38,623 nt of DNA, from assembly GCA_019118425.1 (NCBI GenBank), contig DWYZ01000152.1, forward strand, positions 1-38,623. Direction: 5' to 3'. The notes beneath the pieces are model-generated. The model did not search any database. It saw nothing but the letters and a program-made list of their open reading frames with translations, and was not told where the DNA came from. Shown here piece by piece: positions 11,473 to 38,623 of this stretch (positions within the stretch are counted from its first letter, which is position 1; the number at the start of each line of letters is the position of its first letter). A program made the translations under genes and the position numbers. Source of the stretch: Candidatus Blautia faecavium (GTDB taxonomy: Bacteria > Bacillota > Clostridia > Lachnospirales > Lachnospiraceae).

Positions 11473-11546
11473 GACGGCAGGAAGGTGTTTATATCTTTTT
11501 GCCTGACAGAAGCCGGACCACAGCCCTTTTTGCGCTGAAAAAGATG

Positions 11547-11605
11547 GACACATGTCACACCGTAACCACGCACCCGCTGCGTGGTTACGGGCTAGTATGA
11601 ATCAG
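11547..11605 (+). mobile_element. 59-bp palindromic MITE/REP-like element, copy 1
   Basis: 13-bp perfect stem CCGTAACCACGCA-CCCGC-TGCGTGGTTACGG; 46/59 ungapped identity to 23609-23667; flanked by imperfect 9-bp direct repeat (aaaaagatg/caaaggatg). Confidence 0.75.
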
Positions 11606-11623
11606 CAAAGGATGTGGTCCGGC

Positions 11624-21945: not shown

Positions 21946-23118
21946 ATGAATGTCTGTATCGATGCGGCATGGAAAAGCCTGAACAAATTTGAAGAGGAGC
22001 TTTGCGGGGATAAGGTGGAAGTACATAAAACAGAGACGTCAGATATCGTGATCCTGGCGGACGGCATGGGAAGCGGGGTAAAGGCAAATATACTGGCGAC
22101 CCTTACCTCTAAAATCCTGGGGACTATGTTTTTAGAAGGCGCTTCCATTGAGGACTGTGTGGAGACCATAGCTAAGACGCTGCCTGTCTGTCAGGAAAGA
22201 AAAACCGCATACGCTACCTTCAGTATCCTGCAGATTTTTCATGACGGAAACGCTTACCTTGCGGAGTTTGATAATCCAGTGTGCGTGTTTGTGCGGGATG
22301 GAAAGATCGTGGATTATCCCTATACAGAGCGGATCATAGAGGAGAAGAAAATCCGGGAATACCGTTTTCGCGTACAAAAGAACGACTGTTTTGTGCTTAT
22401 GAGCGATGGAGTGATCTATGCAGGGGCTGGGGAAATCCTGAATTTCGGGTGGACCTGGGAAAATATGGCAGAGTATACGCTGAAGTGTACCAGGCAGACA
22501 CTTTCTGCCGCCCGTTTGGCCAGTCTTTTAAGCGATGCCTGCAATGATCTGTATGAGCAGAAGCCGGGAGATGACACGACTGTGGCTGTGGTGCGGGTAC
22601 GTGAGCGCCAGGTAGTGAATATCTTTACCGGTCCTCCTGAGAAAAAAGAAGACGATGAGCGGCTTATGTATGATTTTATGCATTCTCCGGGAAGGAAGAT
22701 CGTCTGCGGCGGGACTACGGCGAATATCGCGGCGCGTGTTTTAGGAAAAGAGATCGTTACTTCTGTAAATTATGCCAATCCGGATGTTCCCCCCACGGCG
22801 TCCCTTGAGGGAATCGACCTGGTAACGGAGGGGGTTCTGACTCTTGGAAAAACCTTAAAGCTTTTAAAGCGTTATGCGGAAGATGATTTTGACGTGGATT
22901 TCTTTGATGAGCTGGATGCGGATAATGGAGCGTCCCGTCTGGCAAAGATCATAATAGAAGAATGTACGGACCTTTGTCTTTTTGTGGGAAGAGCGGTGAA
23001 TACCGCCCACAAGGATTCCAGCCTGCCCTTTGATCTGAGCATGCGGATGAATCTGGTGGAGCAGTTAAAAGAGACGGCAGAGAAGCTGGACCGGCAGGTG
23101 ACAGTGTCTTATTACTAG
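21946..23118 (+). CDS. SpoIIE/PP2C-family serine phosphatase
   Basis: VILADGMGSGVKANILA, CFVLMSDGVIYAG, PGDDTTVAVVRV. Confidence 0.88.
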   Translation: MNVCIDAAWKSLNKFEEELCGDKVEVHKTETSDIVILADGMGSGVKANILATLTSKILGTMFLEGASIEDCVETIAKTLPVCQERKTAYATFSILQIFHDGNAYLAEFDNPVCVFVRDGKIVDYPYTERIIEEKKIREYRFRVQKNDCFVLMSDGVIYAGAGEILNFGWTWENMAEYTLKCTRQTLSAARLASLLSDACNDLYEQKPGDDTTVAVVRVRERQVVNIFTGPPEKKEDDERLMYDFMHSPGRKIVCGGTTANIAARVLGKEIVTSVNYANPDVPPTASLEGIDLVTEGVLTLGKTLKLLKRYAEDDFDVDFFDELDADNGASRLAKIIIEECTDLCLFVGRAVNTAHKDSSLPFDLSMRMNLVEQLKETAEKLDRQVTVSYY

Positions 23119-23125
23119 GATGATC

Positions 23126-23170
23126 ATACAGGCCCGAATCATGCAGCAGGTGTGTGGTTCGGGCCTGTAT
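23126..23170 (-). repeat. diverged copy of the palindromic element (20-bp arms), doubling as 3' hairpin of hyd operon
   Basis: ATACAGGCCCGAATCATGCA-GCAGG-TGTGTGGTTCGGGCCTGTAT; reverse complement CGAACCACACACCTGCTGCATGATTCGGGCC matches copy 3 core CGAACCACGCACCTGCTGCGTGGTTACGAGCC. Confidence 0.6.
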
Positions 23171-23207
23171 GCAACCTGATTAAAAGGAACATAGGAAAAA
23201 GAAAAGA

Positions 23208-23301: not shown

Positions 23302-23394
23302 ATGGACAAGAAACATTTTGATTTCAAAAACTTGATGGCCTTTGGTATGTTCATCCTGGCATTGCTGACATTCGTATTTACGTTTATCAGATAA
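23302..23394 (+). CDS. putative holin-like type I toxin peptide (30 aa)
   Basis: MDKKHFDFKNLMAFGMFILALLTFVFTFIR*; single TM with the LM.AFGMF.LALLTF motif of small Hol_Tox-like peptides; leader GGGTGGCTGACCTCTATTCTTACATAGAATGGGGG. Confidence 0.75.
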   Translation: MDKKHFDFKNLMAFGMFILALLTFVFTFIR

Positions 23395-23403
23395 TGTTTT
23401 AAA

Positions 23404-23503
23404 GCATAGAAAAACCACCCTCATAACTTTGACCGGTTTAGGGTGGCATTTCTATGTACACTTTTTAACTTGGTCAACCACTTTGTGGGCGGTTGTTCTT
23501 TCT
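23404..23503 (-). ncRNA. candidate antisense antitoxin RNA of the type I TA locus
   Basis: minus-strand promoter TTGTAA-17-TATAAT (23533-23538 / 23510-23515); transcript would begin near 23503, converge on toxin mRNA and share direct repeats with its leader; hairpin 23405-23421/23440-23456. Confidence 0.65.
23405..23456. terminator. shared convergent hairpin of the TA locus
   Basis: CATAGAAAAACCACCCT / AGGGTGGCATTTCTATG, 15/17 pairing. Confidence 0.6.
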
Positions 23504-23608
23504 ATTTGTATTATAAAGCACACTGAAATAAATTACAACAGAAATTTGATGTTTGTGGTGCAATCCCTTATATTCCATTATCGTCCCATTTTAGGATTGT
23601 AAACGAGT

Positions 23609-23667
23609 GTTATATGTTACACTCGAACCACGCACCTGCTGCGTGGTTACGAGCCAATATGATTCAA
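23609..23667 (+). mobile_element. 59-bp palindromic MITE/REP-like element, copy 3, with perfect 9-bp flanking direct repeat
   Basis: flanked by TAAACGAGT at 23600-23608 and 23668-23676; core CTCGAACCACGCA-CCTGC-TGCGTGGTTACGAG. Confidence 0.8.
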
Positions 23668-23725
23668 TAAACGAGTCGTTCAGTCACAGGGCATTTGCGG
23701 AAAGCCTTGAAAAAAGGAGTTTTTC

Positions 23726-38488: not shown

Positions 38489-38504
38489 TAAACAGATTTT
38501 TTCG

Positions 38505-38533
38505 GGCTGGCCGGATTTTCGGCCAGCCTTTTT
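38505..38533 (+). terminator. Rho-independent terminator after second bifurcating operon
   Basis: GGCTGGCC-GGATTTTC-GGCCAGCC-TTTTT. Confidence 0.88.
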
Positions 38534-38559
38534 GCGTGGTTCGGGTGTGACATGTATCC
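38533..38559 (-). repeat. truncated half copy of the 59-bp palindromic element
   Basis: reverse complement GGATACATGTCACACCCGAACCACGCA matches copy 1 GGACACATGTCACACCGTAACCACGCA. Confidence 0.7.
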
Positions 38560-38623
38560 AGAAGCTTTTCTGTTTTTTCTGCTGTCTTGTAAGTTTACCG
38601 GGAATATGCTATAATGTGGAAGA

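Follow-up and report, generated by a model that had tools for sequence, protein, structure and literature searches.

The palindromic 60-bp repeats in the window (the whole stretch of 38,623 nucleotides that was analysed) are, with good though not full confidence, short and probably immobile derivatives of a MITE of about 133 bp (ends GTTACnnGTCACAC) that is moved by an IS66-type insertion sequence and has been shortened by deletion. The family is a MITE with IS66-type ends, of which the 60-bp copies in the window are truncated members. A sequence-only reading of this DNA had proposed a non-autonomous, MITE-like palindrome with target duplications and copies across the genome, and this part of the proposal stands; its suggestion that a 59-bp palindrome is the transposing unit most likely does not, the unit being in all probability the 133-bp element, which carries two more hairpins and the genuine right end.

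The first of the short forms occupies positions 23609 to 23668 of the plus strand and, as aligned with the other copies in the same genome (hereinafter G000), comprises the left end GTTATATGTTACAC, the hairpin H1 (23623-23652, plus strand; CCTGC loop and bulged A, identified from sequence and covariation) and a spacer; it matches the covariance model of the family with E=5e-11 and breaks off at ATTCAAT where the consensus has ATTCAAC. The repeat TAAACGAGT is found, as described earlier, at 23600-23608 and 23668-23676 with 59 bp in between. The family-wide length of the target duplication is 8 bp, not 9 bp, and the element is accordingly 60 bp long (23609-23668), not 59 bp; the ninth base, the T common to 23600 and 23668, is a product of chance, be it a mere coincidence or a C-to-T change at the last base of the element. 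The duplication proper, AAACGAGT, lies at 23601-23608 and 23669-23676 (8/8 at +60). The 11547 locus, which had been aligned without gaps to the same palindrome, is a second short-form copy (11547-11606, plus strand; E=4e-7), flanked by a duplication that had been missed, AAAAGATG at 11539-11546 and AAAGGATG at 11607-11614 (7/8 at +60). In this copy, the H1 bulge is gone, leaving the perfect palindrome CGTAACCACGCA..TGCGTGGTTACG, and the insertion site is the loop of a terminator-like hairpin, GCCGGACCACA...TGTGGTCCGGC.

Two further segments noticed earlier also belong to the family. The supposed truncated copy is a genuine 5' remnant at 38533-38560 on the minus strand, which consists of the left end and the 5' arm of H1 (GGATACATGTCACACCCGAACCACGCA), lacks the right end and forms a 28-nt inverted repeat with 11545-11572 (89% identity); it abuts a terminator-like hairpin located 3' of a 1169-aa ORF. 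This hairpin (GGCTGGCCGGATTTTCGGCCAGCC-TTTTT) spans 38489-38532, and the remnant starts right past the T-run. The supposed diverged copy (23118-23175, minus strand) is a degraded one that on its own gives a weak match to the model (E=0.07), its H1 stem being lengthened into a longer palindrome (CATACAGGCCCGAA/TTCGGGCCTGTATG). Nearby, at 23304-23395 of the plus strand, we observed an ORF for a membrane peptide of about 30 aa (MDKKHFDFKNLMAFGMFILALLTFVFTFIR) followed by a hairpin at 23407-23460, a combination (23304-23460) that resembles type I toxin-antitoxin pairs of the TxpA/BsrE kind; a similar layout adjoins the MITE copy L012/L044.

The window corresponds to contig C44 of the 3.5-Mb genome G000 (318 contigs), in which a blastn search yielded at least 40 good copies (40 of the 74 candidates scored). 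There are 29 exact occurrences of the hairpin core per strand and none of the reversed control pattern, and a genome scan with a covariance model, the check proposed in the sequence-only reading, produced 125 matches at E<=0.1. The repeat family is genuine, and its abundance greatly exceeds what chance would give. In a set of 60 distinct left ends, a flank repeat of at least 7 of 8 bases was found for 22 copies at +132/133 and for 6 copies at +60 (28 in total), and 6 further left ends, those of subfamily B, have such a repeat at +144/145; in all, 34 of the 60 left ends show an 8-bp duplication at the expected offset, against 1.9% in a shuffled-flank control (offsets +59/60/132-134). The duplicated targets are A+T-rich and mostly start with AA. 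A crude ORF test placed 42 of 44 copies between genes, in mixed orientation to the neighboring ones; such placement would be expected if insertions into genes are lost. A search of the window against Rfam gave no match at the gathering threshold (only a chance miRNA match at E=0.21 in three loci), and no exact match to the H1 pattern was found in viral contigs.

Inspection of the flanks of the G000 copies showed that most of them run on past the H1 palindrome into further sequence. The full element of subfamily A is 133 bp long and consists of the left end GTTAC(A)TGTCACAC, the hairpins H1 and H2, and a right-end palindrome, H3, with the consensus GTTACATGTCACACC-[CGAACCACGCA cttgc TGCGTGGTTACG]-GGCCAGyATGATTCAAC-[AGGCAATTTGGC taaagcgaagcgaactttaaat GCCAAATTGCC]-CGTTACTGGTCAC cgt GTGACCAGTAAC. 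H3 begins with an internal direct copy of the end, to which the right inverted repeat is joined. H3 palindromes of 27 bp also occur alone, and one of these (L105), located between GTTTTATA and GTTTCATA, fits a deletion of all the sequence that separates the direct copies of the end. The terminal inverted repeats are GTTACATGTCACAC / GTGTGACCAGTAAC in subfamily A and GTTACTATTCACAGCC / GGCTGTGAATAGTAAC, a perfect pair, in subfamily C; the 60-bp form in the window has none, the right end having been lost. The family combines the features of a MITE, namely, short, non-coding, dispersed copies with terminal inverted repeats and a fixed 8-bp duplication.

Imperfect palindromes scattered between genes in many copies are also characteristic of REP/BIME and ERIC repeats. 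The present family shares these features but differs, in a comparison made by description (the model test being that against Rfam), in having 8-bp duplications and inverted ends in common with a DDE insertion sequence. Bacterial MITEs of the MITEPsy1 kind are likewise short and non-coding, with inverted ends, a target duplication and a probable origin from a co-resident insertion sequence; MITEPsy1 itself is 100 bp long, with 18-bp ends, a 4-bp duplication and an IS5-like partner (PMC3189936), in contrast to the IS66-type ends, 8-bp duplication, three conserved hairpins and about 100 copies of the family described here.

How the short forms arose is indicated by their junctions. In nine copies (L001, L008, L022, L026, L033, L257, L260, L285 and L290), the element ends in TTCAAC with the duplication directly after, and in another such copy (L294) the duplication is at +61; other short-form junctions lie at +57, +58 and +59. 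We read the short forms as deletions because the TTCAAC junction has AAC in common with the right end GTAAC, because L020 and L041, with a junction that differs from TTCAAC, have duplications (ACAGGCTG/AACAGGCG) that match the internal AACAGGC exactly at the junction, and because L264 carries a sublineage variant, GTAGACTTAA, of the long copies L281 and L287. Judging by these junctions and variants, the short forms are polyphyletic. Internal deletions that retain the right end and the duplication were observed as well (L129, 64 bp; L263, 72 bp; L029, 113 bp; L262; L279). The roughly ten copies that stop at the same TTCAAC junction, with the 8-bp duplication directly after it, could also be taken to mean that the 60-bp form is itself mobile, the transposase recognizing the right end ...GATTCAAC (GTTGAATC on the other strand) and the form spreading independently of the 133-bp one. 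We consider this unlikely: that right end matches the left end no further than GTT/AAC, short copies share their sublineage variants with different long copies (L264 with L281/L287), the junctions at +57, +58, +59 and +61 occur too, and at two of the junctions there is a match to the local target duplication, which slippage predicts. The 60-bp forms look like recurrent deletions of H2 and H3 rather than a separately mobile unit.

A search for an insertion sequence with ends matching those of the MITE, which had been proposed earlier, revealed IS66-type elements in the genus, including one in G000. With the C-type end as the query, we identified in genome G062 an IS66-type element (L195) whose right end is identical to the left end of subfamily C (20/20), with a second copy that runs off its contig; a complete relative of 2495 bp (L202) has inverted GTTAC ends around an IS66-like transposase. 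The element in G000 (L199; C29:132-2491, 2360 bp) has inverted GTTAC ends, a 14-bp inverted repeat and an IS66-like transposase that matches the Pfam family PF03050 with E=4e-25 (89 bits, cut-off 23); against the NCBIfam IS66 profile, the candidate partner transposase scores 162 bits, under the curated cut-off of 180, which suggests a divergent branch. This element has no target duplication and is at best 13/15 identical to the right end of subfamily A; the actual driver may therefore be another element. A search of the genus with its transposase retrieved GTTAC-ended copies with perfect 8-bp duplications in G001 (three copies: TAAGATTC, GACATGCT and TTCTATAC), G068 (TTTTGGTT), G014 (CGCCGGGG) and G006 (TGCTTTTC). 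The end of a further IS66-type element, L210 in G035 (GTTACAAGTCACACCCTAACCA), matches the left end of subfamily A at 20 of 22 positions; a target duplication was not found for L210, and a model search of G035 showed no MITE of the present family. An IS4-type element in G063 (L179, 1068-2833, 445-aa transposase) has the MITE ends on its flanks but was rejected as a partner: its own ends are CAATGTCAGTAAG, and it lies with one arm of a solo H3 palindrome on either side, apparently an insertion into the hairpin loop. A relative in G000 (L197) is without GTTAC ends.

On the sequences compared, the link between the MITE and the IS66 type is strong; the assignment of a particular insertion sequence as the driver of subfamily A is inferred. 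Members of the IS66 family are listed with 8-bp repeats (PMC3281130), and the ends of its classic members are reported as GTAAGCG (PMC12888890). The MITE has in common with this family (PF03050, DDE_Tnp_IS66) the 8-bp duplication and the terminal inverted repeats that it shares with the IS66-type elements examined here, and differs from it in being non-coding, with a length of 133-145 bp, and in having ends that begin with GTTAC, not GTAAGCG; the partner elements examined encode one small ORF and the transposase, with no clear TnpA and TnpB pair. The difference in the ends indicates that the IS66 branch involved here is a different one. The same observations bear on whether these repeats are REP/RAYT-like or IS200/IS605-type single-strand elements driven by a Y1 transposase, as might be thought of dispersed, intergenic imperfect palindromes with a bulge and a high copy number. 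Consistent 8-bp duplications and terminal inverted repeats are foreign to that mechanism, REP/RAYT elements being defined by a Y1 partner and no target duplication, and the elements with matching ends are of the IS66 type, with a DDE transposase, which makes a Y1-driven origin highly improbable.

The IS66-linked family extends well beyond G000. Genomes G003 and G027 from the same genus contain subfamily B (144-145 bp), and when 85,488 genomes were searched for a pattern in which the stem letters were free, 45 stretches were returned, nearly all from Lachnospiraceae MAGs, many of these from the rumen; two of the 45, L141 (Paludibacteraceae) and L175 (Leucobacter), are without the ends and were taken as chance matches. 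The stretches returned include subfamily C (145 bp), with near-identical copies that have 8/8 duplications, and 17 of 27 B and C copies in other MAGs have duplications of at least 7/8. Model searches of four chosen genomes added subfamily D (142-143 bp) in G006 and, in G001, the more loosely related E (L234, duplication CTGTATGC). The layout of subfamilies A to D is the same (left end, H1, H2 and an H3 derived from the end); in E, one hairpin resembles H1 and another H2, and the right end is less regular. A subfamily C copy in G063 (L154, L180) carries extra inserted hairpins (GGAATCGTGCGCTTCGGAACAAACTTTAGTTTGTTCC and others) and is about 300 bp long, with its GTTAC ends intact. In G001, we also found a 121-bp GTTAC-ended palindromic element with a different interior (L236; G001:C1:2515044-2515164; duplication GATTGTTA), which suggests that there are more IS66-type MITE families in the genus.

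The fold of the element is conserved to a greater extent than its sequence letters. In 35 distinct H1 sequences of subfamilies A to C, 94.8% of the cells pair and 6 of the 12 pairs show changes on both sides (8 of 13 when D is added), counts that are inflated by the relatedness of the copies; the covariation score is 0.259 compared to 0.170 for shuffled sequences (a value reached by none of 500) and no more than 0.086 with the partner slid. The extra purine near the base of the H1 3' arm and the CTTGC loop are kept in D, where the stem is otherwise different; in B and C, the outer arms of H2 change together; and the consensus-like copies of A to E have single-strand folding z-scores of -5.4 to -10.5. 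Template switching can 'correct' a palindrome even where no selection acts, and the lost bulge of the 11547 copy, the extended stem at 23118-23175 and a terminator-like stem gained by L016 are what template switching would give. In L016 (G000:C140:5520-5652), the right end has inverted arms matching the right flank (AAAAGAGCCTC...GAGGCTCTTTT), so that a terminator-like hairpin was formed, apparently by template switching. Such correction removes bulges, yet the consensus keeps them, which suggests, without proving it, selection on the spreading copies.

Tentatively, and with low confidence, the H1-H3 fold, rather than being passenger DNA, could be needed for IS66-type mobility and be recognized single-stranded, as DNA or RNA, via the bulged purine of H1 and the CTTGC loop, with H3 able to swap pairing with the left end; if so, IS66 transposition would include an undescribed strand-specific, structure-recognizing step. 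The folding z-scores (-5 to -10), the strong covariation and the intergenic location (42/44 by the crude ORF test) would also be expected if the repeats were host regulatory or structural RNAs, or REP-like processing or terminator signals, that are kept for the neighboring gene and for which mobility is incidental. This explanation is quite improbable given that individual copies decay (broken pairs, truncations, remnants), that their orientation to the neighboring genes is mixed, that Rfam gives no match above threshold and that the target duplications show insertion; the intergenic location is in any case expected from selection against gene disruption.

Under the preferred reading, a deletion-shortened IS66-type MITE, a DDE transposase of the IS66 type, produced in trans, would recognize the ends and insert the element. 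Once in place, the element would lose the part from TTCAAC through to the right end, a stretch able to fold into H2 and H3, by replication slippage between short repeats, either AAC...AAC or the internal AACAGGC and a matching target duplication; what is left would be the 60-bp form with the duplication still on both sides. On weaker grounds, the H1/H2/H3 fold may be kept by selection on the spreading source copies, given that individual copies decay while the subfamilies keep their pairing.

MITEs as such are known; neither the IS66-type origin nor the conserved three-hairpin body seems to have been described in the open-licence literature searched, with ISfinder outside the scope of the search, and no open-licence paper was found that deals with MITEs derived from IS66 or with those of gut Clostridiales. 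Rumen and gut Lachnospiraceae carry a high-copy, IS66-linked MITE family, in several cases with identifiable partner insertion sequences, and the near-identical subfamily C copies point to recent activity in some species. From the short forms it can be seen how insertions rich in hairpins are eroded, apparently through slippage, with the target duplications kept, which is a trap for elements defined from duplications alone. The folded architecture is the same in subfamilies A to D despite the turnover of the stem letters, and is mostly retained in E, so that whether a MITE needs its internal fold to spread becomes a directly testable question.
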